Shown one piece after another: positions 8,776-61,916 of a DNA stretch of 64,000 nucleotides. The DNA is from a virus, in the IMG/VR virus record IMGVR_UViG_3300021420_000001, positions 47,481 through 111,480 of that record; one strand, 5' to 3'. Under the pieces are notes generated by a model. The model was not told the DNA's origin, searched no databases, and saw only the letters and a list, made by a program, of their open reading frames with translations. Position numbers and translations under genes: made by a program. Numbering within the stretch: position 1 is the stretch's first letter; each line of letters begins with the position of its first letter.

Positions 8776-9044
8776 TGAGAATTTGCCGCCGTCCAGGCTT
8801 TCATATTCTCCATTCCTTGAGGGCTAATAAGCAGTTGACCCCGCGTTGATCCGTCCGGATAAGACGCTCGGGTAAGCCAACGAACCTCTTCCGTACCAAC
8901 GATACCTAAGAACTTTTCCATAGCGTCAGGTGTCATTCGGGGAAGGTCTCGGTAGACCCAACCGTCAGCCCGTAAAGTTTCGCCAGGGAACGGTTCACCT
9001 TCAGGTAGAGGCCAACTATCCATCCAATCTTTCAGTGCACTCAT
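8772..9044 (-). CDS. Hypothetical protein, 90 aa
   Basis: 90 residues, MSALKDWMDSWPLPEG, with no recognised motif. It lies between a methyltransferase-like gene and a glycosyltransferase with four-base overlaps on both sides, so it is translated as part of the glycan operon. Confidence 0.6.
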   Translation of the reverse strand: MSALKDWMDSWPLPEGEPFPGETLRADGWVYRDLPRMTPDAMEKFLGIVGTEEVRWLTRASYPDGSTRGQLLISPQGMENMKAWTAANSQ

Positions 9045-24198: not shown

Positions 24199-26631
24199 TC
24201 AAACTCGGGCAACCTTCATCGAGTCATCCATGCCGAGCTTTCGGACGGCATCCTCGATTGCAGCCCAACGGAGTTCTTCCGGAACCTTATCACCAATCCT
24301 AACGTCAGTACCAGCGCGACCCTCTTGGCAAACAGCAAGATGATTTGCGATGATGTCCACCATCTTCCCATCGTAAGGTACGCCCTTATACTCGCCCGGC
24401 TCCATTAGGGCCTTGTATCTGTAACCACAGCTCAGTTCGCGTTTCTCCCCCGACTTGATTGCGTCAATATCGTCCTGAGACCAAATGACCAATGAATTAC
24501 GCAAATAAGGATCATCAAACTCTGCATCTGTACCCGTAGCACCAATCACTTCATCTGGTTGATGATCATCCGCCGAAACTGGGATGTGCTCACGTAGAAC
24601 CGGGATGCCGTTGAAGGTGGGGGCGGCTTTAGCGAGTTCGTCCGGGTCGCGCAGGAGTTGATACACCTTGTCAGGGTCCAATTTGAGCGTACCGTCCTCG
24701 TCCGGTATCTCTTTGCCCAAGTACGGGCAAACGTTGGCCTTACTAATATTCGCAACAGTTACATGCAATCGACCATCAGCATCGTACTCACGCACGGACT
24801 TATCGAGGGCAAGTACCAGCTTATCGTCAGAGGCCCGAATGCTTCTATCTAGCGCGGCCCACTTGGCTTCGTCCTGTACCACCTTAGTATCTTCAGCACC
24901 ACTTTCCTTCAATACATCTACGCCATCAATCTTTGCAGACCAAATCTTGTCGGCCCCATCTCCATCGAAATTTGACTTGAACGGGTTCTCGTCCTCCTCG
25001 ACGACTACATTTCGAGAAGACCCTTGCGCCCCCAACCGCCAGATAGAACGTAGAAACCCAGCCATGTTGAAATCGCCATCGTACTCGATCTCAACCTTAT
25101 GCTCAGGTTCCTGCTTACTGTCCATCGTGACTTCAAGATCACCATGGTGGTGCGGAATAGGCTTGACGTCAGCATCCTTGGGTGGATTGCGTGGCGTCAG
25201 CTTCTCGATCCTGGACTCTTGACCACGGAACCAGGCGCAGAGCGCATCCCAATCAATGCCTTGTTCCTTACAATATTGTCGTTCGCTGGGCGTTCCAGCG
25301 GCATTGTGGGACTGAAGATAGATTTGCTTCTTTTCTTCGGTCTTGGGCTTACGTCCATGCTCTTCTTCGAACTTCTCAATGCGCGTTCGAATCTCGTCCA
25401 GTTCCGGTACTTCATGATGGACTAGGTCTTCGACAACATCGACAATCTTGCCATTGATCTCTACAGTCTCCGGCAGGTTGCGATTGACGTACATGGTCTC
25501 GCCGTCTTTCGACATGCAAGAGACCCAAGGACCATCATGAGTGTGGTCAATCTTTACGGCGTAGGTATTCTTGGGCGTGAAAAGCTTGCACCAACCGTTC
25601 GGATCGATAGGGTCCTCAACGAGTTGGCAGTGCGAAATACCACCTTCCTTGAAATCGTATTTGCAGATCGAGCAGTGAGACTCTGGCTTGCCGTTGCCGT
25701 AATCGACTTCTTGTTGAGAGAGCTTGGCGTCATAGGCTTCACAATCTTTGGCCTGCTTCGCCGCCTTTTTAGCTTCTCGATACGCAACGGCTTCAGCATT
25801 TTGGCGCTTAGTAAGATTGAATTCCTGCAAATCGTAAGGATAAACAGCGATAACTTTTCCAGACGAATCAACAACCTCGTACTTTCCAGGGGAAAATTTA
25901 ACAGTTGCGGCATCCTCCGCATGCTCGTCTTCCTGTTCCTCCTCGGACAGGAACTTCATCAGCCCGTCTTTGAGTCCAGCCCAATCCTCAGGCGTCATAT
26001 CTTCACCCGCCTCGGAACCAAGTTTGGTCTTAAGCGTCTTGGCTACAGCGGGATGAAGAGGTTGCGGCAACTGGTCCAAACTCGACCAGCAAAACCCACT
26101 ATGCTCACCGTTCAGCTTAGGGACGAACTTGGCCGCTACAGGCTGAGCAAACGTATGGAACGCCATTCCTGTCGGAGTCGTAACCTTGTCCAGCAGCTTT
26201 TTCTCGCCGCTGGGCTTGCCGCCAATTTCCTCACGTGACTCGCGGTCAGCGGCTTGTTCTGGGGTCTCACCCTCCTCGGCATTACCACCAGGGAGCGCCC
26301 AATGGCCCGCGTAGTTCTCTTCCTGGGAACCACGACGGAGAAGTAGGACCTCGCCATCAGGTGCGACAAATAGTATACCAGCGGCAATACCACCCTCGTT
26401 AGATTCTTCGTCCTTACCCTGTGCAGCACGACGCTTTGCCTCAAGCCGCGTCTTCTTCTCCCACTCTTTCCATTTACGCTCGCCCTCAGTTTCTGGCAAG
26501 TCGTAACGCCCCTTCATCTGCTCGCGAGACTTAAGCGCCTCGCTCTCATCTTTACGATAGCCCTTGTAAGGTTGCTTCTCGCGCTTGGGGGCGTCTTCAG
26601 CGAGACTCTTGGGTACATAGCGTTCTACCAC
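24199..26631 (-). CDS. Multidomain Nudix / Cys4 / HHE / DUF2213 prohead-protease fusion
   Basis: 810 residues from a GTG with AAGGAGG upstream. Residues about 80-205 are a Nudix domain whose box at 115-137 fits GX5EX7REUXEEXG (GGNAEEGETPEQAADRESRE). Residues 320-351 hold C320, C323, C335 and C348 in a HiPIP-like CSICKYDF...GWCKLF arrangement. About 395-480 is a domain with VEDLVHHEVPE, possibly a metal site. About 575-785 is DUF2213, the head-maturation protease: GEKRELSCGYRY with S734 and IIANHLAVCQEGRAGTDV with H764. Such proteases cleave scaffold and capsid during maturation; the role of the added domains is unknown. The N-terminus MVERYVPK echoes the portal N-terminus MVARYIPK. Confidence 0.75.
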   Translation of the reverse strand: MVERYVPKSLAEDAPKREKQPYKGYRKDESEALKSREQMKGRYDLPETEGERKWKEWEKKTRLEAKRRAAQGKDEESNEGGIAAGILFVAPDGEVLLLRRGSQEENYAGHWALPGGNAEEGETPEQAADRESREEIGGKPSGEKKLLDKVTTPTGMAFHTFAQPVAAKFVPKLNGEHSGFCWSSLDQLPQPLHPAVAKTLKTKLGSEAGEDMTPEDWAGLKDGLMKFLSEEEQEDEHAEDAATVKFSPGKYEVVDSSGKVIAVYPYDLQEFNLTKRQNAEAVAYREAKKAAKQAKDCEAYDAKLSQQEVDYGNGKPESHCSICKYDFKEGGISHCQLVEDPIDPNGWCKLFTPKNTYAVKIDHTHDGPWVSCMSKDGETMYVNRNLPETVEINGKIVDVVEDLVHHEVPELDEIRTRIEKFEEEHGRKPKTEEKKQIYLQSHNAAGTPSERQYCKEQGIDWDALCAWFRGQESRIEKLTPRNPPKDADVKPIPHHHGDLEVTMDSKQEPEHKVEIEYDGDFNMAGFLRSIWRLGAQGSSRNVVVEEDENPFKSNFDGDGADKIWSAKIDGVDVLKESGAEDTKVVQDEAKWAALDRSIRASDDKLVLALDKSVREYDADGRLHVTVANISKANVCPYLGKEIPDEDGTLKLDPDKVYQLLRDPDELAKAAPTFNGIPVLREHIPVSADDHQPDEVIGATGTDAEFDDPYLRNSLVIWSQDDIDAIKSGEKRELSCGYRYKALMEPGEYKGVPYDGKMVDIIANHLAVCQEGRAGTDVRIGDKVPEELRWAAIEDAVRKLGMDDSMKVARV

Positions 26632-48110: not shown

Positions 48111-48917
48111 ATGACTATTGTCTTCAATCAGGACCGCAACGTTCGTCAGAGCGATTACAAACCGCCATCCGAAGGCGCGGTCCTAGTCGTAAAAGCCCCC
48201 TGGGTTACCCTTCAGGGCGAAGGCCCTTATGTTGGTTATCCCGCTATTTTCATTCGATTGGCGGGCTGCAATCTCGGAAAAAAGGACAGCTGTAGTTTCT
48301 GCGATTCCCAGTTCGCTTTCGATAAAGGTACGTGGCGAACGCCGGGAGAATTGGTACTGGCTGTCTACGAAATTGCCAAAGGATATACTTTCCGCGATCG
48401 GCTTGTCGTCCTGACGGGCGGGGAGCCTTTCCTCCAGGAAGTGGCTCCGTTGATTGATCACCTTATTGATGCTGGGTGGACTGTCCAAGCCGAGACGAAT
48501 GGTTTTTTCTGGAACAGTCGTCTCAGTAATCTTTTGACCAAATATCCCAATTCCTTTAAGATCGTAGTTTCTCCCAAGGTCAATCAACGTAAGATCTACC
48601 CGGAATTCAAAGAGGATCTCTTCTACTCTTCGACCTGCCTCAAAATCCTAATAGAGGATGATCCTGGTTCTCCCTACTATCGCATCCCACCATTTGCCTT
48701 TACTTACGCAGACAATTTACGGAAACCGGTGTACATATCTCCGATCAACGCGTATCGTAGAGAGCCCCACCCTAACCAGGAAGTGGTATCATTCTGGGGC
48801 GATAGCCCGCTCGATCCTGAACAGTCTGCACGAAATTACATGTGGGCAGCACATCTCTGTCAGTTGTCCGGATTTCGTCTATCGCTTCAAACCCATCTTT
48901 TCGCCACGGTGGAGTAG
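48111..48917 (+). CDS. queE: QueE, 7-carboxy-7-deazaguanine synthase
   Basis: 268 residues. VTLQGEGPYVGYPAIFIRLA followed by GCNLGKKDSCSFCDSQFAF holds the radical-SAM cysteines C53, C61 and C64 in a CX7CX2C spacing, within the unusual range known for QueE. LVVLTGGEPFLQEVAPL is the SAM-binding GGE strand and SLQTHLFATVE is the usual C-terminus. Converts 6-carboxytetrahydropterin to 7-carboxy-7-deazaguanine. Partners QueD, QueC and FolE are not in the window and may be host-supplied. Confidence 0.88.
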   Translation: MTIVFNQDRNVRQSDYKPPSEGAVLVVKAPWVTLQGEGPYVGYPAIFIRLAGCNLGKKDSCSFCDSQFAFDKGTWRTPGELVLAVYEIAKGYTFRDRLVVLTGGEPFLQEVAPLIDHLIDAGWTVQAETNGFFWNSRLSNLLTKYPNSFKIVVSPKVNQRKIYPEFKEDLFYSSTCLKILIEDDPGSPYYRIPPFAFTYADNLRKPVYISPINAYRREPHPNQEVVSFWGDSPLDPEQSARNYMWAAHLCQLSGFRLSLQTHLFATVE

Positions 48918-52686: not shown

Positions 52687-54233
52687 TACCGAAACGGAAG
52701 ATCAAGGCATTTCTTACGCAGCCCCGCGATGATTTGCGAACGTATAAAAAGCTAACGCTATCTCAGCTCGAAGCGTTGAAGGCCCAACTTCCAGTCCAGC
52801 CTCCGATCTGGAACAAGCTCAAGATTCATCAGAAGGTCGGGTTTCTACTCGGCGCCAAGTACGGGCGTATAGCACTTTGGCTAGACACGGGAACTGGCAA
52901 AAGTTGTTTAAGCATTGCCTTGGCTCGTTATTTCCGGAAACTCAAAACCATCAAGCGATGCCTCATTCTGGTCCCAAACAACATCAATAAATACGAATGG
53001 AAGCGGGAGATCAAAAAGCATTCCCCTGAAACCTCTCACGTCATCCTATCGGGATCATCCTTACAGAAATGGGATCAGCTTCGCAGCAATCAATCGTTCC
53101 TGGTCATCGCGACCTACGCAGGCCTAGTCCGAATGGCCTGCAAGATCGTAAAGAACAAAAAAGGCAAGAACAAACTGGCACCTGATCCCAAACTGGTCCG
53201 AGAACTGGCAAAGGCCTTTGATGGTCTCGTAAACGACGAGTCGACCAGCCTTGGATCGCGATCATCATTAGCGTTCCGCATCTGTCGGCAGATAGGAAAG
53301 AAGGCGCCATTCGTTGCCAACCTATCGGGAACGCCTTTCGGAAGAGACCCGACGCCTCTCTGGGCGCAGATGTTCCTGATCGATGGTGGCGAGTCCCTGG
53401 GTAAGAACCTGGGTCTGTTCCGCGCCGCTTTCTTTACGGCCCAGGAAAACATCTGGTCCGGCTATCCCGAATATACGTTCGACAAGCGCAAGAAGGGTTT
53501 ACTCAACCGTTGCCTGGCCCATCGTTCGATCCGCTATGAAGCTGACAAGGCCGATCTGCCCCCGGTCGTTTCCATCGTCAAATACATTCGTTTGCCTTCT
53601 GACGCCAAGACCTACTATGAGAAGGCAAAGGAACGTTTAATCGCCGCCCACGGTAATTATCAGGAACAGAAGAACTCCTTCTTACGCCTCAGGCAAATAT
53701 CATCAGGCTTCCTTGGTTACAAAGATGACGAGCGCGGCGTAAAGGCGCAAGTCGAGTTCAATCCCAATCCCAAATTGGAAATGCTCCTGAGTATCATCCA
53801 GGCTGCTCAGGCTTCGTATAAAATCTGCGTAATGCATGACTTCATCTTTTCCGGTACAATGATCGCCCGCGAGCTCAAAAAGCTCGGCATCGGTTACGCT
53901 CGAGTTTATGGAAAGACGAAGAAGGAGGCGCCCGAGCAGTTACGTAAATTTGACGAGGACGAGGACTGCCGGGTGTTCATCATCAACTCGGCAGGCGCGT
54001 TCGGGCTAAATCTTCAGCGCGCAAAAGCCATGATTTTTTTTGAGAGTCCGGTCAGCCCGATGATTCGTACCCAAATGGAGCGTCGCGTCGAACGTCAAGG
54101 CTCGACCCACAACAAAGTTTTCCGATACGATCTTCTGACTGAGCACACCGTAGACCAACAAATCCGGGATATGCATGCAGAAGGTAAATCTTTGTTGGAA
54201 GCAATCGTTAATGGGGTTATAATCCCCAAATGA
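52683..54233 (+). CDS. SNF2/SF2-type helicase
   Basis: 516 residues from ATG 52683, in an ATGA overlap with dpdA. IALWLDTGTGKSCLSIAL (motif I), LVNDESTSLGSRSS (motif II, a DES variant), VANLSGTPFGRDPTPLW (motif III), INSAGAFGLNLQRA (motif V) and MERRVERQGSTHNKVFRYDL (motif VI, Q-G variant) define the SNF2 group common in phage replication modules. The C-terminus HTVDQQIRDMHAEGKSLLEA has a duplicate just after the following HNH gene. Probably remodels DNA in replication or packaging. Confidence 0.82.
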   Translation: MIPKRKIKAFLTQPRDDLRTYKKLTLSQLEALKAQLPVQPPIWNKLKIHQKVGFLLGAKYGRIALWLDTGTGKSCLSIALARYFRKLKTIKRCLILVPNNINKYEWKREIKKHSPETSHVILSGSSLQKWDQLRSNQSFLVIATYAGLVRMACKIVKNKKGKNKLAPDPKLVRELAKAFDGLVNDESTSLGSRSSLAFRICRQIGKKAPFVANLSGTPFGRDPTPLWAQMFLIDGGESLGKNLGLFRAAFFTAQENIWSGYPEYTFDKRKKGLLNRCLAHRSIRYEADKADLPPVVSIVKYIRLPSDAKTYYEKAKERLIAAHGNYQEQKNSFLRLRQISSGFLGYKDDERGVKAQVEFNPNPKLEMLLSIIQAAQASYKICVMHDFIFSGTMIARELKKLGIGYARVYGKTKKEAPEQLRKFDEDEDCRVFIINSAGAFGLNLQRAKAMIFFESPVSPMIRTQMERRVERQGSTHNKVFRYDLLTEHTVDQQIRDMHAEGKSLLEAIVNGVIIPK

Positions 54234-54871
54234 AAATAAACCAGACGGACTTTACTAATGAGCGCTTCGGTCGCCTAGTGGTTATAAAACGAGCGCCCAA
54301 TGAACGCAAATACGTTACTACATGGGTTTGTCACTGTGATTGTGGTAGCAAAGTAAATGTTTCTATTTACCGCTTGCTTTCAAAGGAAACGCGAAGCTGT
54401 GGTTGTTTGCATAAAGAGCAATTAATTAAACGATCGACAACCCATAACCATGCCTACACAAAAACGTATACGACATGGGTAAATATGAGAGCGAGGTGCT
54501 TTGATCCGAATAATCCCTCTTACCATCGTTACGGTGGGCGTGGAATCACGGTTTGCCCGCGATGGCTTACTTTTGAAAATTTCTTGGCTGATATGGGTGA
54601 TCGCCCTTCGGGCACATCCATAGAACGCAAAAACAATAACGGCAGTTATGAACCCGAAAATTGTTGCTGGGCCTCCTCGGAAGAACAAGCACGAAACCAT
54701 GGTCTTAGAAAAGATAATAAATCAGGGCACTGTGGGGTTAGAAAATGTTGGAGTAAATGGTTAGCAATTATCAGCGTTAATCAAACGCAAATTATTCTAG
54801 GGCGGTTCAAAAGTAAAGCAGAAGCTATCATTGCTCGAAAGAATGCGGAACATTTCTACTGGAGAAAATAA
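54230..54871 (+). CDS. HNH/AP2-type homing endonuclease-like protein
   Basis: 213 residues. FTNERFGRLVVIKRAP, WVCHCDCGSKVNVS and TRSCGCLHKEQL form the zinc-ribbon head typical of this phage endonuclease group. YHRYGGRGITVCPRWLTFEN, MGDRPSGTSIERKNNNGSYE and NCCWASSEEQARNH form the nuclease core (ERKNNNGSYEPEN replacing the usual DR.DN). An AP2-like end (GVRKCWSKWLAII) follows. AT-rich compared with its neighbours. Placed exactly at the 3' end of the SNF2 gene, with leftover helicase sequence after it, so it is probably a mobile insertion. Confidence 0.75.
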   Translation: MKINQTDFTNERFGRLVVIKRAPNERKYVTTWVCHCDCGSKVNVSIYRLLSKETRSCGCLHKEQLIKRSTTHNHAYTKTYTTWVNMRARCFDPNNPSYHRYGGRGITVCPRWLTFENFLADMGDRPSGTSIERKNNNGSYEPENCCWASSEEQARNHGLRKDNKSGHCGVRKCWSKWLAIISVNQTQIILGRFKSKAEAIIARKNAEHFYWRK

Positions 54872-55190: not shown

Positions 55191-55684
55191 ACCTATGTAT
55201 AAAAAGGAGTTGTTCCGGGAACGGGAAAGGTCCATATTACGTATAGGATCTGAGTTGGGAATGGGACAGCGCCACCGATATTAGGGGCCAGAGCCCGAGC
55301 GAGAAAAGTCGCGAACCTGAACTTGACCTGTCTCTCAAAATGGGCATCCTGGAACGCGGCGAGATCAATTTTCATTGACACCGCGCGACCGACTCGACCA
55401 ACCGCCATGCATTTTGCGAATGCCCTTCGCGGCCGTAGTAGCAACTCAATGCAGACGGTGTCAGAAAATTGACGACCTCATCCCTACCACTTTCGAGCAT
55501 CGAAACATGACAGTAGCCTTGGTCGGCGAAAATGCCTGACCTGTTGTGCTCATGCCTCGGTTCCTCGTCACGCAGCTTCAGTGCCGAACCGAGCTTCACG
55601 CAAACCCCGAGATCGCTAGTGGCGGATGTTGTATCTCTCTCTTCTCCTAAAACAGAAAGTGGTCCGCAGTGATGCGCGCCACTC

Positions 55685-55735
55685 GTTGCACTTGAGCAAT
55701 GCAACCTGATGACGAGCTCACATAGGAGAGAGATC
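55685..55735 (+). promoter_or_regulatory. Cassette leader 1: hairpin plus ATAGGAGAGAGA block
   Basis: Hairpin GTTGCA/TGCAAC (55685-55705), then CATAGGAGAGAGA (55721-55733) immediately before the ATG at 55736. First of ten copies of this ribosome-binding leader. Confidence 0.8.
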
Positions 55736-55954
55736 ATGGCTAAGGCCTTTGAAGTTCAGAAGTCCAACTATGATGCAGCCCGGCCGTTTGCGGTAGTCGC
55801 AACGTTCCGTAGCTTCAACAAGATCATGGGACGATACGCAGATGAAGCCTCCGCCAAGCGTCGGGCGCGCGTTCTCAACAAACGCAACGCCGATTTGGAT
55901 TATCTCAGCGAACGCCGGACGGTGGTTTTCGCGCTGCCGGAAGTCAATTACTGA
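55736..55954 (+). CDS. Array protein 1, 72 aa
   Basis: 72 residues from ATG 55736, right behind the leader. MAKAFEVQKSNYDAARPFAV, then EASAKRRARVLNKRNADLDY. Small, basic, likely cytoplasmic. No known family. First gene of the array of small proteins that share the hairpin-plus-leader layout. Confidence 0.65.
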   Translation: MAKAFEVQKSNYDAARPFAVVATFRSFNKIMGRYADEASAKRRARVLNKRNADLDYLSERRTVVFALPEVNY

Positions 55955-55955
55955 G

Positions 55956-56135
55956 ATGGCTAATTGTTGTGATTGTGGGGTTCGGCTTAGCGGCTGGACC
56001 CCACCTCCGCCATTCCGGCCCTTGTGCATGGATTGCGGAAACCGGATGCTGGCTCAAAAATATCTCGCACATCGTTGCGAGCCTGAGCCTGAAGCTAAAC
56101 CTGAGCCGGAGGTTGACGATCGTTATATTTTCTGA
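55956..56135 (+). CDS. Small zinc-finger-like protein, 59 aa
   Basis: 59 residues from ATG 55956, one base after the previous stop. CCDCGVRLSGW and LCMDCGNRMLAQKYLAHRC form two CxxC knuckles, followed by an acidic tail (EPEPEAKPEPEVDD). Has no leader block of its own and is translated with its upstream partner. Confidence 0.65.
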   Translation: MANCCDCGVRLSGWTPPPPFRPLCMDCGNRMLAQKYLAHRCEPEPEAKPEPEVDDRYIF

Positions 56136-56145
56136 ACGCAGCTAG

Positions 56146-56201
56146 GAAGGTTCTTCGGAACCTTCTCAGGGTGCGTTTATGCACTACATAGGAGAGAGAA
56201 C
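56146..56201 (+). promoter_or_regulatory. Cassette leader 2: UUCG hairpin plus leader block
   Basis: Perfect 8-bp stem GAAGGTTC-TTCG-GAACCTTC (56146-56165) closed by a stable UUCG-type loop, then ACATAGGAGAGAGAA (56186-56200) before ATG 56202. Confidence 0.85.
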
Positions 56202-56396
56202 ATGGACAAACAAACTATGGAAGAGTTTGCAATAGCCGCTGCTCACGGTATAAACGAATTTTTACAATCAATCCGAGGGGCACGAACCCACGCCGACGTG
56301 GTTGTGGAAACGCAACCCGCTATCAGGTTAATAATCAAGTTACCTGATGATACATATTTGGAAATGCCCATCAACGGGCCCCATCATACCTTGTAG
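56202..56396 (+). CDS. Array protein 2, 64 aa
   Basis: 64 residues, MDKQTMEEFAIAAAHGINEF, ending DTYLEMPINGPHHTL. Mixed alpha/beta; no recognised domain. Preceded by leader copy 2. Confidence 0.6.
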   Translation: MDKQTMEEFAIAAAHGINEFLQSIRGARTHADVVVETQPAIRLIIKLPDDTYLEMPINGPHHTL

Positions 56397-56407
56397 TGGT
56401 ATCGAAG

Positions 56408-56468
56408 CAGGCATTTTCGGATGCCTGTCACGATGCCCTTCTTAAGGGTGTCTACATAGGAGAGAGAA
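56408..56468 (+). promoter_or_regulatory. Cassette leader 3: two hairpins plus leader block
   Basis: CAGGCAT/ATGCCTG (56408-56427), then CCCTT/AAGGG (56436-56448), then ACATAGGAGAGAGAA (56454-56468) before ATG 56469. The GCAGGCAT...TGCCTGTCA stem recurs in leaders 5 and 8. Confidence 0.85.
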
Positions 56469-56924
56469 ATGACTGATGACAATACGTCACCATTTGTTCC
56501 TGGTGCGCGCGTTGCAATCCAGAGTAAATACACGACTCACGGCTACACCGAAGGGTTCGTGGACAAGGTCCACAAGCCGCGCGGTAAATACTCCGACTAC
56601 GGGAACATCACGCTGAAGGGTTCTGCCCAACAATACCGGGTCAGCCGTTCGCGGGGTTTCGGGGATGACGTTGGCATGCGTTGGGGTGCATCCTCGACCG
56701 GGGATGAATGGCGGCACACCTTCATCTATCCCTGGGATGCGAAAATTGAAAAGGAGATCGCCGAACAGCGCGAGTCCAATAAGCGCCAACGTCGGATCAA
56801 CCGATTGGAGCAAGCCGTCAAGGCCATGCACCGCGACAACAAACTGCTCGATGGATTCCTCGATACGATCGAAGAGTTCGAGTTGTACGACCAACTCGCG
56901 CCTGTCGAGACGAAGGTTGCGTAA
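56469..56924 (+). CDS. Array protein 3, 151 aa
   Basis: 151 residues. The N-terminal half is SH3-like (PFVPGARVAIQSKYTTHGYT; DKVHKPRGKYSDYGNITL), the C-terminal half a charged coiled coil (KEIAEQRESNKRQRRINRLE). No enzyme motif. Preceded by leader copy 3. Confidence 0.65.
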   Translation: MTDDNTSPFVPGARVAIQSKYTTHGYTEGFVDKVHKPRGKYSDYGNITLKGSAQQYRVSRSRGFGDDVGMRWGASSTGDEWRHTFIYPWDAKIEKEIAEQRESNKRQRRINRLEQAVKAMHRDNKLLDGFLDTIEEFELYDQLAPVETKVA

Positions 56925-56938
56925 ACTGATCCAGCGCA

Positions 56939-57000
56939 GAGGGCTTCACGGAGCCCTCGACGGTGGATGGTTTTTGTTCACCAAAACATAGGAGAGAGAA
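56939..57000 (+). promoter_or_regulatory. Cassette leader 4: hairpin plus leader block
   Basis: GAGGGCT/AGCCCTC (56939-56958) then ACATAGGAGAGAGAA (56986-57000) directly abutting ATG 57001. Confidence 0.85.
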
Positions 57001-57990
57001 ATGACAGACGCAGTTGAAACGATGGCGTTCGCAGGAACTACGCCATGGCATGGTAAGGGGTTCCCAGTCAACAGCAATATGACGCCCCAAGAGATGCTGG
57101 TGGCGAGTAAGACCAATTGGACCGTATCCAAGAAGCCGATCTACTTCGAAAAGGCCGGCAAGATGGAGATCGTGCCCGATCGGTTCGCTCTCATCCGCGA
57201 TTCGGATGAGTCCTGCCTGTCGCTCGTCGGCAGCAAATGGAAAGTCAACCAGAACGAAAAGACGTTCGACTTCTTCTCCAAATACGTCAAGGAAGGCAAG
57301 ATGGGGATGGAGACGGCGGGTTCGCTCTGGTCCGGCCGATACGTCTGGGCGCTCGCGCGGCTCGGTTCCGATTTCGCAATCGGAAAGGACGAGGTCCGCG
57401 GTTACGTCTTATTGGCATCCCCGCACGTCTTTGGGCGGTCGATGCTGATCCAGACCACCGCGATCCGGGTCGTATGTTGGAATACGTTCTCGGCCGCTGT
57501 CGGTTCCAATCTGAAGGGCAAGGGCGGTAACGTGTTCCGCATCCCACATTCCCAGGAGTTCAATGATACGGCCAAGGCAGCCGCCGCATTGACCCTGGGT
57601 CTGGCAACCGAGCAGATGGTCGAGTTCAAGGAGGTCGCGACGTTGCTTTCCAGGAAGAAGGCGACGGCTCCCAAGACCGAGGAGTTCTTCTGCGAGGTCC
57701 TCAAGTTCGATCCCAAGGACGCCGTCAAGAAGAAGGATGGTGAGGACAAGGAGCCCCGCATGTTGTCCAAGTTCCGGGCGGCCCTGACCCATGCTCCGGG
57801 CCAGGAAATGCCCTCGGCTTTGGGCACGTGGTGGGGCAATTTCAATGCGATTACGCACGTGATCGATCATGAGGTCGGCCGCGATCGTGACACCGCGTTG
57901 AAGGCGGCCTGGGTCGGTGGTCACGCCAACCTGAAGCGTGATGCCCTGAAGCTCGCAATCGACTACGCGACCAAGAGTAAGGCGGCGTGA
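57001..57990 (+). CDS. DUF932 / TIGR03299-like phage-plasmid protein
   Basis: 329 residues. FAGTTPWHGKGFPVNSNMTP at the start, LVGSKWKVNQNEKTFDFFSK, GYVLLASPHVFGRSMLIQTT, IRVVCWNTFSAAVG and GNVFRIPHSQEFNDTAKAAA follow the DUF932 family in order. Conserved in phages and plasmids, function unknown, often among early or replication genes. The longest gene of the leader-block array. Confidence 0.8.
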   Translation: MTDAVETMAFAGTTPWHGKGFPVNSNMTPQEMLVASKTNWTVSKKPIYFEKAGKMEIVPDRFALIRDSDESCLSLVGSKWKVNQNEKTFDFFSKYVKEGKMGMETAGSLWSGRYVWALARLGSDFAIGKDEVRGYVLLASPHVFGRSMLIQTTAIRVVCWNTFSAAVGSNLKGKGGNVFRIPHSQEFNDTAKAAAALTLGLATEQMVEFKEVATLLSRKKATAPKTEEFFCEVLKFDPKDAVKKKDGEDKEPRMLSKFRAALTHAPGQEMPSALGTWWGNFNAITHVIDHEVGRDRDTALKAAWVGGHANLKRDALKLAIDYATKSKAA

Positions 57991-57991
57991 T

Positions 57992-58075
57992 ATGAACCGC
58001 TTTATGATCTCGGTCGAGTTGGTGCTGTTCTGGGCTTCGACCATAATGATCGGAGCCATTCTTTTTCTACGCTAA
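57992..58075 (+). CDS. Tiny TM protein, 27 aa
   Basis: 27 codons, MNRFMISVELVLFWASTIMI followed by GAILFLR, a single membrane helix. ATG one base after the DUF932 stop, so translation may be coupled. Function unknown. Confidence 0.45.
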   Translation: MNRFMISVELVLFWASTIMIGAILFLR

Positions 58076-58088
58076 GTCACAAGCACAG

Positions 58089-58151
58089 CAGGCATCTAAG
58101 TCGGTGCCTGTCATGGTTGTGTACTTGCAACCAAAACATAGGAGAGAGAAA
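58089..58151 (+). promoter_or_regulatory. Cassette leader 5: two hairpins plus leader block
   Basis: CAGGCA/TGCCTG (58089-58110), GGTTG/CAACC (58115-58132), then ACATAGGAGAGAGAA (58136-58150) before ATG 58152. First stem nearly identical to that of leader 8. Confidence 0.85.
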
Positions 58152-58370
58152 ATGCAGTACTATACGTTTTCAGGACCGGCCGACATGAAGTTCGGAAAGA
58201 CGTCGGTCAAGGCGGAAACCGAGAAGGATGCCCGACACCTCGCCATGGTCGCGCGATGGGGGCGTCCCAACGGAAAGCCCCATCCCGGCGATACCGGCCC
58301 AGACGGGCGGTATCTGAGTCACGGGCTCGAGTTGCTCGATATCAGCGACAAACCTCCGGTGGAGGAATAG
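58152..58370 (+). CDS. Array protein 5, 72 aa
   Basis: 72 residues, MQYYTFSGPADMKFGKTSVK, then ARHLAMVARWGRPNGKPHPG. Charged and small. No known family. Preceded by leader copy 5 and followed without a gap by the next gene. Confidence 0.6.
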   Translation: MQYYTFSGPADMKFGKTSVKAETEKDARHLAMVARWGRPNGKPHPGDTGPDGRYLSHGLELLDISDKPPVEE

Positions 58371-58541
58371 ATGCTATACGAGATCAAGGTCTACGAGTCC
58401 TGGGTCAAGGTCAGTGAATGGATTTTCCGTTCCTGGGGCGGACCGCGACGTCTAAATGGTAAACGCTATCGCGGTCCGGTCTACTACCTTGGAACGGAGA
58501 ACTTCACCAAGAAACCTCCAGCGCCGAGTGTGCGCCGATGA
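58371..58541 (+). CDS. Basic hypothetical protein, 56 aa
   Basis: 56 codons from an ATG adjoining the previous stop, MLYEIKVYESWVKVSEWIFR, then GPRRLNGKRYRGPVYYLG. Basic and aromatic. Ends in an ATGA overlap. Unknown. Confidence 0.6.
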   Translation: MLYEIKVYESWVKVSEWIFRSWGGPRRLNGKRYRGPVYYLGTENFTKKPPAPSVRR

Positions 58542-58930
58542 GCACCAAATACCGACCCGGGTCCCGGGTCCAACAGGTGTGGGAGGTCTACGAGAAGGAG
58601 GGTGCCGACGGTGCCACAGCCTTTGGAAAAGGGCTTGGGCTCGCCGATGGCACCCTCAAGGGTTGGATGCGGATGTGGTCGACAGGGATTGACAAGAAGG
58701 CGAAAATGCCTTCTCCGCCCATCTCTACCAAGCCTCCGACCAAGGTGATCCGGACGTCCCGATCCATGCTCGGAAAGGAACGTATCCGGGTCATCGGGAT
58801 TGAAGGTGAGGCCTACCTGATCGCACAGGGGCCTGACCAAAGTGAGATTCGTTGGGTGCATAATGGCAACCAGGTTGTCATACCCAACGATTGGATCGAG
58901 GCAGAGTCCAGCGAAGTGCCCTCCGCGTAG
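58538..58930 (+). CDS. HTH-containing hypothetical protein, 130 aa
   Basis: 130 residues. The N-terminal VQQVWEVYEKEGADGATAFG followed by LADGTLKGWMRMW resembles a helix-turn-helix for DNA binding. The C-terminal half (KERIRVIGIEGEAYLIAQGP; IRWVHNGNQVVIPNDWIE) is a beta domain. Could be a small regulator. Translated with its two upstream partners. Confidence 0.6.
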   Translation: MSTKYRPGSRVQQVWEVYEKEGADGATAFGKGLGLADGTLKGWMRMWSTGIDKKAKMPSPPISTKPPTKVIRTSRSMLGKERIRVIGIEGEAYLIAQGPDQSEIRWVHNGNQVVIPNDWIEAESSEVPSA

Positions 58931-58941
58931 GAGGGCATCAC

Positions 58942-58972
58942 GCTGCACTTACGCAGCATAGGAGAGAGAACC
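58942..58972 (+). promoter_or_regulatory. Cassette leader 6: hairpin plus leader block
   Basis: GCTGC/GCAGC (58942-58957) touches CATAGGAGAGAGAA (58957-58970), then ATG 58973. Shortest spacing of the set. Confidence 0.8.
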
Positions 58973-59317
58973 ATGAACGGACTAGGTATCAATCCCAAGC
59001 ATGTTTGGATTATGCACAACCAAGTCGAGCGTTGTCTGCTCTGTGGAAACACAGCGGCAACTCTTGATCACGTCAAGTTCGTCCGGGAACAGAACGCTCT
59101 GCAACCCCAACGCGAGGCCCTTTTCGCATTGGTCCGCGACCCGGATGATTGGAAGGCGCCGATCGAAGCCTTCATCAAATACGCGTGGAACATCCCCGTC
59201 GAAGACATGGATGATGCTATCGTCCATTTCACCGGCGTGGAAAATACGATCGTCCACGATACCTTCGGATATACGATCAAGTCCGTCGGTTATCGCAACG
59301 GTCCGTGTGGTCCCTAA
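58973..59317 (+). CDS. Array protein 6, 114 aa
   Basis: 114 residues. MNGLGINPKHVWIMHNQVER, then CLLCGNTAATLDHVKFVREQ with one CxxC and an HxxF segment, then helices. No HNH core is complete. Preceded by leader copy 6. Unknown. Confidence 0.6.
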   Translation: MNGLGINPKHVWIMHNQVERCLLCGNTAATLDHVKFVREQNALQPQREALFALVRDPDDWKAPIEAFIKYAWNIPVEDMDDAIVHFTGVENTIVHDTFGYTIKSVGYRNGPCGP

Positions 59318-59333
59318 GTCCCTACCGGCCGGG

Positions 59334-59392
59334 CGGCTCCTTCGGGAGCCGTCTCCCGGTGCGGATTGACCGTACCAACATAGGAGAGAGAA
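59334..59392 (+). promoter_or_regulatory. Cassette leader 7: UUCG hairpin plus leader block
   Basis: Perfect 7-bp stem CGGCTCC-TTCG-GGAGCCG (59334-59351), then ACATAGGAGAGAGAA (59378-59392) abutting ATG 59393. Confidence 0.85.
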
Positions 59393-59602
59393 ATGGCTAA
59401 AGCATCTTTGGGACAGCGTCGCGCTCTTCGACTCGTCGACGAGAACCAAGCCTGTCTGAACGAGCGAATCTACCGCCATGGCGTGGACGATCCGAACAAG
59501 CTCAGGCTCGAGTTGGAAGGGCTCCGCAATGCCTGGTTGCATTCGGGGGCCTTGCCCTACACGGAGAACCTGACCATCGTCGACGTCGAAGCGACGCGGT
59601 GA
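59393..59602 (+). CDS. Array protein 7, 69 aa
   Basis: 69 residues, MAKASLGQRRALRLVDENQA, helical, ending NLTIVDVEATR. Preceded by leader copy 7; overlaps the next gene by four bases. Unknown. Confidence 0.6.
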   Translation: MAKASLGQRRALRLVDENQACLNERIYRHGVDDPNKLRLELEGLRNAWLHSGALPYTENLTIVDVEATR

Positions 59603-59790
59603 TTGACGTGATCAGGAAAACGAAAAAGCCCGGCGGGCCCGTCCGATATGATGTCGTTCTTTACGACATCGACCAGAACGGAACTACGATGACCTGGTAT
59701 GTATACTCGGAGGAAGGGGCACAAAGACATGCCACCGACCTCCGCGTACAGCACCCCGGAAAGAAGGTCGAAATTCGGGTCGGAGCATAG
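59599..59790 (+). CDS. Hypothetical protein, 63 aa
   Basis: 63 residues, MIDVIRKTKKPGGPVRYDVV, with WYVYSEEGAQRHATDLRVQH, a small alpha/beta protein. Coupled by ATGA to array protein 7. Unknown. Confidence 0.6.
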   Translation: MIDVIRKTKKPGGPVRYDVVLYDIDQNGTTMTWYVYSEEGAQRHATDLRVQHPGKKVEIRVGA

Positions 59791-59802
59791 AGTTCAGCGC
59801 AG

Positions 59803-59866
59803 CAGGCATCTCAGACGGTGCCTGTCACGCTGTACTACTTACGTATGGCAAACATAGGAGAGAGAA
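59803..59866 (+). promoter_or_regulatory. Cassette leader 8: hairpin plus leader block
   Basis: CAGGCA/TGCCTG (59803-59824) with the same flanks as leader 5, then ACATAGGAGAGAGAA (59852-59866) before ATG 59867. Confidence 0.85.
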
Positions 59867-60172
59867 ATGAGTTTCAAGAACATTCGCAATATCGGGCGTC
59901 CATGGCAGTTCAAATTCGCTATGCGCGATCTACTGAACGATGATACGTCGAGCGAGAATGCTCGACGGGTAGCGGAAGCACTTGCTGCTCGCATCAAAAG
60001 CTTTCTGAAACAAACCAATCTACTGGAACCGGCTGCAGCCAAACAAGGTCGGCTTCTTGCAGAACGGTTGGATCGTGCTGCCAAGAATACGGACTACGAC
60101 GTGGACTACTTCAACCATGATCTCGATGTGTTCTGGGATTGGGCAGACGATGCCCGCATCCTAGTTGAATAA
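59867..60172 (+). CDS. Array protein 8, 101 aa
   Basis: 101 residues, MSFKNIRNIGRPWQFKFAMR, helical, with an acidic end (DYDVDYFNHDLDVFWDWADD). Preceded by leader copy 8. No family recognised. Confidence 0.6.
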   Translation: MSFKNIRNIGRPWQFKFAMRDLLNDDTSSENARRVAEALAARIKSFLKQTNLLEPAAAKQGRLLAERLDRAAKNTDYDVDYFNHDLDVFWDWADDARILVE

Positions 60173-60187
60173 AAGTTCGTAGCGAAG

Positions 60188-60207
60188 GCAGGCTTTGCGG
60201 AGCCTGC
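60188..60207 (+). other. Orphan cassette hairpin
   Basis: GCAGGCT/AGCCTGC, of the same type as the other intergenic stems, but followed by the minus-strand gene at 60215 instead of a leader block. Confidence 0.7.
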
Positions 60208-60214
60208 TCACTTC

Positions 60215-60745
60215 TTAAATAAATCTTCCATCTGTACTTCGAGTCCGCGCTTTAGCATATATAGAATGTTTAAACCTCCTTTCCGTAGTTTGTTTCCGAG
60301 GTTGGATTTTATTTCCTAACATAAGTCTTCGCAATTCTGCCCGACGTTCTGGAGAGCACTTTCTTTCTCGATCATTCTCCAACTTAGTTATAATTCGAAC
60401 ATTTCCGACAGCGTAGGGACCTTTATCACCAAAGCGGGCCATGCAATATTGATCTGCGCGTTTACCACGTTCTTCCCAATGCCCCGAGTCCTGCCAAATC
60501 TTCCACCATTCTTCAAATGTAAACAAAAAAGGAATTTTCCGCCCTCTGGCTGAGCCGATATGTTCACAAAACTTTTGATAAGGTATTGTGGGGTAATTAT
60601 GCTTTGGTGGTTTTGGTTTTCGTGGTTTACGCGGCGATTTAGATCGTTTACGAGTTCCGCTAGCCCAGCTATCTAAAGCAGCCAAACGTATGTTTTCGCA
60701 ATGTTCTGGAGTTCGCGGTTTGCGCTTGTAGATACCACGCGGCAT
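60215..60745 (-). CDS. Putative homing-endonuclease-like protein
   Basis: 176 residues on the opposite strand to its neighbours. The N-terminus is very basic (MPRGIYKRKPRTPEHCENIR). The middle block FLFTFEEWWKIWQDSGHWEE, QYCMARFGDKGPYAVGNVRI and TKLENDRERK matches a recurrent group of phage proteins associated with HNH or NUMOD-type mobile genes. The C-terminus is basic. AT-rich compared with neighbours. It occupies the spacer between an orphan hairpin and leader 9, which suggests insertion into the array. Confidence 0.6.
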   Translation of the reverse strand: MPRGIYKRKPRTPEHCENIRLAALDSWASGTRKRSKSPRKPRKPKPPKHNYPTIPYQKFCEHIGSARGRKIPFLFTFEEWWKIWQDSGHWEERGKRADQYCMARFGDKGPYAVGNVRIITKLENDRERKCSPERRAELRRLMLGNKIQPRKQTTERRFKHSIYAKARTRSTDGRFI

Positions 60746-60766
60746 GTTGCTTCTCCCAAAGGTTCT

Positions 60767-60890
60767 CTGACGATCGGGGAACCCTTGGGAGGAACACCCG
60801 ATCGTCAGGACAACTGCCCGGAGCTACCGAGCGGTTGCTATCCTAAAGGGTTTTCCTCAAAACTGCAAATTTACAACATAGGAGAGAGAA
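60767..60890 (+). promoter_or_regulatory. Cassette leader 9: long hairpin plus leader block
   Basis: Perfect 12-bp stem CTGACGATCGGG/CCCGATCGTCAG (60767-60778 with 60797-60808), then ACATAGGAGAGAGAA (60876-60890) abutting ATG 60891. Confidence 0.85.
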
Positions 60891-61646
60891 ATGAACGATT
60901 CACTGAAGGAAAAATTGATCGAGAAGATTCGCAAGTTGCTTGCGCTTGCGGGTTCATCGAACGAGCATGAAGCGGCTCTGGCCGCCGAAAAGGCTCAAGC
61001 CATGCTTGCCGAGTATAATCTTTCGCTCGCCGACATCGATGACGACAAAGAGTCGGACGACTTCGTCATCGACAAAGAGTTGGAAAATGATTCGTTCCCA
61101 TGGAAGCGCCAGGTCGCCGTCATGGTCGCGAAACTCTACTTCTGCACCTACTTCTTTACGCAGTTCAAGCGTTTCGTCAACCAGCGCATCGTCCGACTCG
61201 ATCGTCATAATTTCGTTGGTGCGCAACACAACATCGCCGTGACCAAGGCGATGTTCGTCTATCTGGTCGCGACGGTGGAACGGTTGGCGCAAGAAGGCGG
61301 TCGGCAGGTTCCGTCCTCCGAACGCGAAGCCTACCGGCGGGCGTTCATGTGGGCCTGTACCCATCGACTCAGTCGGCGCATTGCCGAACGGATCGCGGCG
61401 GCACGTGCCGGCATGGGAATCAAGACCGAATCCGGCAATACGTTGCCCGCACTCGCCAACCTCTACGATCAGGCCGAACAGTCCCTGAAGAACTTTCTGG
61501 ATGGGAATGTCGGCAAGTTGAAGACGGCCAAACGTGGCGGCAAGATCAGTTCCGCGCAGGGTGCCGAAGATGGGCGCGCTGCCGGTGACCGCATCGGCCT
61601 TGACACCCAGTTGACGGGCAAGGCTGCTGCGCATTTGCTGCGTTAA
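60891..61646 (+). CDS. DUF2786-like protein
   Basis: 251 residues. LKEKLIEKIRKLLALAGSSN followed by EHEAALAAEKAQAMLAEYNL is the DUF2786 motif (residues about 5-45). The remainder is a helical domain with AYRRAFMWACTHRLSRRIAE. This pair is common in phages and function is unknown. Preceded by leader copy 9. Confidence 0.78.
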   Translation: MNDSLKEKLIEKIRKLLALAGSSNEHEAALAAEKAQAMLAEYNLSLADIDDDKESDDFVIDKELENDSFPWKRQVAVMVAKLYFCTYFFTQFKRFVNQRIVRLDRHNFVGAQHNIAVTKAMFVYLVATVERLAQEGGRQVPSSEREAYRRAFMWACTHRLSRRIAERIAAARAGMGIKTESGNTLPALANLYDQAEQSLKNFLDGNVGKLKTAKRGGKISSAQGAEDGRAAGDRIGLDTQLTGKAAAHLLR

Positions 61647-61658
61647 TAGGAGAGGGAA
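61645..61658 (+). promoter_or_regulatory. Cassette leader 10 (variant, no hairpin)
   Basis: AATAGGAGAGGGAA directly before ATG 61659, overlapping the previous stop. A degenerate copy of the leader without an intervening stem. Confidence 0.7.
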
Positions 61659-61916
61659 ATGAGCAAAACTACTTTCAACATTCGCGTTGCCGATGGGCCC
61701 GTGCAAAAAATCGAGGTTAAGACGGGTATCTACCGCGATGCAGCGGCAGCTGTGCCTGCGCTCTTAGGCTTAGCACTGCCGATCGTGGTGGAAATTTGGC
61801 ATCCTAAGCTGGTCCCAGAATACGGACCATACCTCTATCGTATCAAAGAGAATGCATTTGGTGGCCTCGTAACTGAGCATTGCATACGCACGCATGGTAC
61901 TGGAGCCCGGAAATGA
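61659..61916 (+). CDS. Array protein 10, 85 aa
   Basis: 85 residues, MSKTTFNIRVADGPVQKIEV, then AAAAVPALLGLALPIVVEIW. Last gene with a leader block; coupled by ATGA to the next. Unknown. Confidence 0.6.
   Translation: MSKTTFNIRVADGPVQKIEVKTGIYRDAAAAVPALLGLALPIVVEIWHPKLVPEYGPYLYRIKENAFGGLVTEHCIRTHGTGARK

Follow-up and report, generated by a model that had tools for sequence, protein, structure and literature searches.

The window analysed here is a stretch of 64,000 nucleotides (bases 47,481 to 111,480 of the 111,480-base IMG/VR virus record IMGVR_UViG_3300021420_000001) and carries an array of small genes whose transcription units are headed by a short repeated leader next to the start codon and, in most cases, by a structured, covarying RNA hairpin immediately upstream of it. 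The slot occupied by this hairpin holds type II hammerhead ribozymes in related phages, the leaders are specific to each phage, and the head of the array bears a segment complementary to the leaders, hereafter the 'anti-leader'. The most probable explanation, in our view, is that these intercistronic elements are sites of RNA cleavage which, together with the phage-specific start signal, split a polycistronic message into separate mRNAs.

The leader, ACATAGGAGAGAGAA, is found in seven exact copies and two copies with one mismatch between positions 55,720 and 60,890, all on the + strand; a weak copy further downstream, with three mismatches, has no hairpin (Table 1). At up to three mismatches there are 11 matches against 1.3 expected from shuffled sequences, and none of 100 shuffles reached 11. 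A preliminary description of this stretch, made from its letters, had reported a 6-kb leader array, found nowhere else in the window, and both statements were borne out: there are nine near-identical copies and one weak one, and a motif search of the whole 111,480-base record gave no copy outside the array at up to two mismatches. The same description had spoken of ten genes sharing the leader. Leaders do head the units, but the genes at 58371, 58538 and 59599 are internal to units and leaderless, so that the leader marks transcription units rather than genes. The exact 18-mer of leader plus ATG was found in 10 contigs of IMG/VR, with a single exact match in each, which we attribute to chance. 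Intrinsic terminators and sigma-70 promoters showed no excess at the units (the promoter total was not above that of shuffles), and no promoter-like site was found in the intergenic elements of the window.

For comparison, relatives were gathered through the proteins that flank the array (SNF2 helicase and primase), giving about 40 loci from related phages; probing viral contigs with DUF932 recovered none. All genomes compared are metagenomic contigs of uncultured phages, and gene calls are simple open reading frames. L and G numbers denote related loci and genomes, G000 being the window's own phage.

Seven leaders of the window are preceded by intact copies of a single hairpin type (h2 to h8 in Table 1). 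It is built of an outer stem, often with a 1x1 mismatch (G.G or other), a short stem, an internal loop (2x2, in some copies 1x2 or 2x1), an inner stem of 8-10 uninterrupted base pairs usually opening with G.U, and a terminal loop of 4-6 nucleotides. The core consensus is AGCNNAG ... UCANGGU, with C-G below the internal loop in 13 of 13 copies and G.U above it in 12 of 13. The preliminary description had counted eight perfect hairpins before leaders, two of them with UUCG loops. Seven are intact; the eighth (h9) is truncated and cut off from its leader, and the element before the first leader is a hammerhead-like three-way junction, described below. Nor are the stems perfect, since the conserved internal loop and usually the mismatch break the full stem and leave only the inner stem uninterrupted; the UUCG loops number three (h2, h3 and h7).

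In an alignment of the seven window hairpins with six elements of L043, 13 of the 17 pairs show two-sided changes and 82% of the cells are paired. The covariation score is 0.581, against 0.231 (standard deviation 0.031) in shuffles, of which 0 of 500 scored as high, and at most 0.287 in slid controls; folding z-scores lie between -3.0 and -4.0 for the three elements tested. A covariance model, R1, trained partly on the window's own hairpins, was run against 0.97 Mb of sequence from the window phage and related ones. It recovered the training copies (h7 barely) as well as independent sites in L046 (E 4e-7 to 2e-5), and found no site in the window's genome beyond the array copies. The + strand outscores its complement by 49 to 24 bits in one comparison and 45 to 20 bits in another. 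Two pattern scans of IMG/VR, in which the pattern fixed the core and left inner-stem pairing free, gave further copies upon scoring with R1 in L097/L102/L112 and two in L108; the L097 element lies immediately 5' of AAGGAG...ATG, and L097-type copies likewise precede a ribosome site and ATG. An Rfam search with the hairpin and the array returned no curated family, only weak, meaningless matches. The internal-loop hairpin is a new covarying RNA motif absent from Rfam. No U-tract follows the window hairpins, and no terminator was called at any element. Two other search tools were replaced by the covariance model: a generic folding scan for hairpins, which was far too permissive, and a strict ungapped hairpin descriptor, which gave chance matches. 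Separately, at L046 4529-4574 a long near-perfect palindrome (GAATTGCACCATGGGACGC..) lies 5' of a leader; since R1 scores both of its strands, it may act at the DNA level as an operator or be a hairpin of the RNase III type.

What occupies this slot in the relatives? Type II hammerhead ribozymes precede the leaders in L037, L044, L068, L072, L076 and L163. Matches to RF02276 above the family cut-off number 15 in G022, 11 in G051, 10 in G042, 7 in G044 and 5 each in G017 and G039, against 0 in 14 control genomes. With a core descriptor applied to 12 records, a ribosome site and start codon lay downstream of 66 of 68 hammerhead cores, nearly always at 21-35 nucleotides; 12% of random positions pass the same test. 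Other phages fill the slot differently: L043 with hairpins of the window type and L070 with plain GC hairpins. In L056 (IMGVR_UViG_3300021168_000025), past the SNF2 gene, strong U-tract-bearing stems (CCCCGGC..GCCGGGGTTTTCTTTT) divide the units, whose leader is TCTAGGAGGA; this layout is a terminator-based version of the array. Four genome matches considered as host or cellular carriers of a hammerhead plus leader were rejected, having neither hammerhead structure nor Rfam match. In L163 (IMGVR_UViG_3300019889_000009), a consensus-like promoter (TTGACA-17-TATTAT) was noted at about 8960-9000, some 0.4 kb 5' of the hammerhead that opens an array of 11 ribozymes.

The window hairpins h2 to h8 are not themselves hammerheads: they contain no CUGAUGA ... 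GAAA core or three-way junction, and G000 has 0 matches to RF02276. Nevertheless, the two kinds of element fill an equivalent slot. In the window phage a hairpin heads the DUF932 gene, whose orthologues in L072, L076 and L068 (50-52% identity) have a hammerhead there, and the DUF2786 gene is hammerhead-headed in L044 and L037. L046 has both types together in one array, the window has a hammerhead-like core at its first unit and hairpins at others, and in L043 the head position is held by an internal-loop hairpin. It is on these orthologous genes and mixed arrays that the equivalence rests; sharing a slot does not by itself imply cleavage.

About ten relatives have a repeated start-associated leader of their own, homogenised within each phage: TGGAGAGAGACA in L037, TCATAGGAGAGAGACA in L043, AAGGAGAGAGA in L044, TCTAGGAGGA in L056 and CACAGGAGAAGA in L070. 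The preliminary description had held that leaders not conserved in relatives would speak against it; their sequence is indeed phage-specific, while the device itself is conserved. Its suggestion that the units are cassettes which can be gained or lost fared better. In the helicase-to-primase interval the content of small genes differs among relatives with the same flanking genes, and orthologues carry different 5' elements. Exchange of cassettes is therefore supported, as gene content and element type vary between phages while the flanking genes stay constant. In L034-L036 (G014) the leader CAGGAGTAAG recurs about 8 times and the leader GAGGAGTTAGCG 3 times, with no hammerheads, and GCGAGAACCC is repeated within a long stretch.

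The head of the window array differs from the units that follow. Its element consists of GAAA, a stem III with a GUGA loop, UC, a 6-bp stem I and CUGAUGA, and so has the core nucleotides, stems I and III and the cleavage-site UH of a hammerhead; loop I (UUGAGC) is able to pair with a downstream GCUCA. A pseudoknot of this kind has been reported for type II hammerheads (PMC3088659). Our own descriptor found only one other hammerhead-like core in the window, a weak match at 24824 on the minus strand.

Just upstream of the head element lies the anti-leader, the best leader complement within the 8-kb interval. Its predicted duplexes with all 10 leaders reach -15 to -17.6 kcal/mol. The order anti-leader, ribozyme or ribozyme-like element, start is common to the window phage, L037, L044, L072 and L076, with 3-10 nucleotides between anti-leader and GAAA; L043 pairs its anti-leader with a hairpin instead. 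In none of the 6 phages does the anti-leader fit the adjacent leader better than the phage's common one, and in 5 the common leader gives the better fit. Duplexes with array leaders average about -16 to -20 kcal/mol, against -11 to -14 for those with other ribosome sites, and shuffled anti-leaders did equally well in 11 (the window phage), 0, 1, 4, 0 and 0 of 200 trials. When the RNA is folded in cis, the helix of leader and anti-leader closes the head junction (z -2.6 in the window, -3.8 in L037). These array-leader energies and the folding in cis are compatible with a lock acting in cis as well as with an antisense role in trans. Binding of the leader by a phage-modified ribosome or a repressor, as the preliminary description had suggested, found no support, and we offer complementarity to the anti-leader as an alternative explanation for the unusual length of the leader. 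It may also be that the anti-leader is borne by a non-coding RNA, with the gene-free segment 54872-55629 as its body: these roughly 750 nucleotides, between an HNH gene (54230-54871) and the head element, contain no convincing gene, and L043 has a similar stretch of about 770 nucleotides.

The anti-leader could instead be the mere leader of a divergent minus-strand gene. A minus-strand ATG does follow it in L044, L072 and L076, opening frames of 126, 71 and 79 codons, but G000, L037 and L043, three of the six phages, lack a suitably spaced start codon, and L072 and L076 share an identical anti-leader but do not keep the minus-strand frame downstream of it. On balance we think such a gene unlikely.

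We propose that each unit comprises an intercistronic RNA-cleavage element, a phage-specific extended ribosome-binding leader and a small gene or short operon. The array would probably be transcribed as a single long + strand message, and a cut at every element would release individual mRNAs, each protected at its ends by folding and all beginning translation from one strong signal. The cutter would be the self-cleaving type II hammerhead in the sister phages; in the window phage, the internal-loop hairpin of seven units would most likely be cut by host RNase III, which is the first candidate because a search for phage-encoded RNase III (PF14622) found none in 16 of 16 phage records. A need to pair with the anti-leader may account for the length and uniformity of the leader, whether the pairing takes place in cis, folded back at the first gene, or in trans at every unit once the segment has been released. 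An RNase acting at the leader had been among the suggestions of the preliminary description; RNase involvement fits as a putative cut within the intercistronic element, made in the sister phages by a self-cleaving ribozyme, and not at the leader.

Several observations weigh against this model. The DUF932 orthologues of L044 and L074 have no element at all, and in G011, a syntenic relative, hairpins of similar build occur with no repeated leader, so that hairpin and leader are separable parts. The head element has no ordinary stem II and gives no match to RF02276. Taken alone, the complement score of the anti-leader falls inside the range of shuffled queries in G000 and L044, and in G051, a phage outside the original sample, the anti-leader match ranks second or third, a weakly positive result. 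The hairpin core is conserved beyond the needs of a generic RNase III site, and a protein site or a new ribozyme is conceivable on that account. Finally, cleavage, the cutting enzyme, co-transcription and antisense action are all steps that we infer.

Could the hairpins act uncut? They might be stable 3'-end shields, or translation insulators, guarding against exonucleases and ribosome read-through. Intercistronic UUCG hairpins are known from phage T4, a UUCG loop caps three of the seven window hairpins and the inner stem is strong in every one, and plain GC hairpins (L070) or terminator-like stems (L056) occupy the equivalent slot. A stable stem would suffice for this purpose, however, yet the internal-loop core is conserved while the stems covary, and ribozymes take the slot in sister phages; we find this account rather improbable. 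Recognition by an RNA-binding protein of phage or host origin, common to the array (a translational repressor, activator or antiterminator), would suit the noncanonical core, since A-G-C..A-G / U-C-A..G-G-U within a covarying stem is typical of protein-binding RNA motifs, but it would leave unexplained both the replacement by hammerheads at orthologous positions and the coexistence of the two in L046, and seems to us distinctly improbable. That leaders and inverted repeats are homologous boundaries spread by recombination or cassette exchange, with an RNA role limited to the ribosome site, would agree with the hypervariable gene content and the homogenised leaders, but is very improbable because of the covariation: compensatory changes preserve RNA pairing, the G-U closing pair (12 of 13) pairs in RNA only, and R1 prefers the + orientation.

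Table 1. Features of the leader array, by position in the window
Feature	Position	Strand	Evidence
Anti-leader TGTATCTCTCTCTTCTCCTA, complementary to leaders	55630..55649	+	complementarity, duplex energy, position in relatives
Hammerhead-like core: GAAA - stem III - UC - stem I - CUGAUGA	55655..55712	+	own descriptor
Leader, unit 1, 1 mismatch	55720..55734	+	
Unit 1 gene, 72 aa, no family	55736..55954	+	
Hairpin h2, UUCG loop	56134..56178	+	R1 E 1.9e-6 (training member)
Leader, unit 2 (gene 56202-56396)	56186..56200	+	
Hairpin h3, UUCG loop	56396..56439	+	R1 E 8.6e-7 (training member)
Leader, unit 3 (gene 56469-56924)	56454..56468	+	
Hairpin h4	56927..56970	+	R1 E 6e-6 (training member)
Leader, unit 4 (57001-57990, DUF932)	56986..57000	+	
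Hairpin h5	58076..58123	+	R1 E 1.2e-7 (training member)
Leader, unit 5 (genes 58152-58370, 58371-58541, 58538-58930)	58136..58150	+	
Hairpin h6, overlapping the end of the preceding gene	58905..58949	+	R1 E 1.3e-7 (training member)
Leader, unit 6 (58973-59317), 1 mismatch	58956..58970	+	
Hairpin h7, UUCG loop, divergent core	59321..59364	+	R1 E 0.14 despite training membership; fold -36 kcal/mol
Leader, unit 7 (59393-59602, 59599-59790)	59378..59392	+	
Hairpin h8	59791..59836	+	R1 E 1e-8 (training member)
Leader, unit 8 (59867-60172)	59852..59866	+	
Truncated hairpin h9: core and inner stem present, 3' outer arm lost	60180..60211	+	sequence and fold
Minus-strand gene intruding between h9 and its leader (phrog_16521)	60215..60745	-	
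Leader, unit 9 (60891-61646, DUF2786/DUF7168)	60876..60890	+	
Weak leader, unit 10 (61659-61916), without hairpin	61644..61658	+	

Upstream of the intruding minus-strand gene, at 60767-60808, lies a perfect 12-bp inverted repeat, CTGACGATCGGG, with an 18-nucleotide spacer, followed by a second stem, CAACTGCCCGG..CCGAGCGGTTG; the pair spans 60767-60838. The first of these had been listed in the preliminary description as a further stem after the insertion. It is present, but gives no R1 match.

The phage itself is a tailed phage, with genes for the terminase large subunit, DnaB- and SNF2-type helicases, a primase and a QueE-like protein in the window, and its DNA polymerase gene in the remainder of the record. 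A DNA-similarity search against the phage collection found no match to known phages. Its cultured relatives are distant (Edwardsiella phage ZHS and the Vibrio SSP002 group, at 25-36% identity), and in phage ZHS about 0.6 kb lies between the helicase match and the primase match, too little space for such an array. The QueE-like gene (48111-48917) and a QueC-like gene recognised by eye (the loci noted are window 48111-48917 and L019:544-1260) hint at 7-deazaguanine DNA modification.

To our knowledge, the natural roles of the widespread hammerhead ribozymes of bacteria and phages are largely unknown. Here, successive start codons in one phage clade are preceded, at constant spacing, by a ribozyme or by a structured hairpin that can take its place, and such arrays make a concrete role testable, namely the intercistronic processing of phage messages. 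They also suggest a possible explanation for phage start-associated sequences, in which the leader is long and uniform as the target of a common antisense segment, and the elements might serve as operon separators in synthetic biology. A bolder combination, which we regard as a long shot, would make the hairpin either a small self-cleaving RNA of a new kind or a dedicated module for cleavage that can stand in for hammerheads, and would have an antisense RNA, released by the first ribozyme, pair with every leader and control translation of the array. If true, a single antisense RNA born of cleavage would govern the translation of an entire set of phage genes.

Among the closest analogues are the start-associated sequences (SAS) of cluster K mycobacteriophages, 13-bp asymmetric repeats with TAGGAG found just 5' of 11-19 genes of the non-structural arm; they exceed the length needed for Shine-Dalgarno pairing, and about half have an upstream 17-bp imperfect inverted repeat (PMC3203893; PMC11373665; PMC12699233). 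These extended start-associated sequences (ESAS) share one common sequence, their changes are generally not pairing-preserving, and they contain SigA-like promoters (PMC3203893, PMC11373665). The window array resembles both in its short repeated leader next to the start and in the inverted repeat upstream. However, the SAS consensus GGGATAGGAGCCC and the window leader ACATAGGAGAGAGAA have only ATAGGAG in common; the window stems covary (two-sided changes in 13 of 17 pairs), unlike the single-consensus ESAS repeats, whose changes do not keep pairing; no sigma-70/SigA-like promoter of the ESAS kind was found in the window elements; and, unlike SAS and ESAS, the element slot holds hammerheads in the window's relatives.

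Type II hammerheads are reported to be very common in bacteria and scattered in phages (PMC3088659; Perreault et al. 2011), and tandem examples, such as three around ardA in Agrobacterium, are described as cleaving in vivo in E. coli (PMC3088659). By score, the elements of the relatives belong to RF02276 and are predicted to self-cleave; the window hairpins, unlike Hammerhead_II RF02276, are not hammerheads. In the passages of PMC3088659 consulted, no arrays were found of up to 15 per phage in which every transcription unit has one ribozyme, constantly spaced from a start signal specific to the phage. A limited literature search found no precedent for such arrays, for the equivalence of hammerheads and the new motif, or for an anti-leader at the head.

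In the early genes of phage T7, RNase III sites are intercistronic internal-loop hairpins just 5' of the next ribosome site, where the polycistronic mRNA is cut. The window hairpins are alike in placement but differ in sequence and in loop geometry, the T7 loops being asymmetric. Unlike the T7 sites, they also have a more strictly conserved core and are replaced by ribozymes in relatives; RNase III is here a candidate cutter. Phage T4 RegB cuts GGAG motifs in early ribosome sites; GGAG also lies within the window leader, which is a start signal for whole units.

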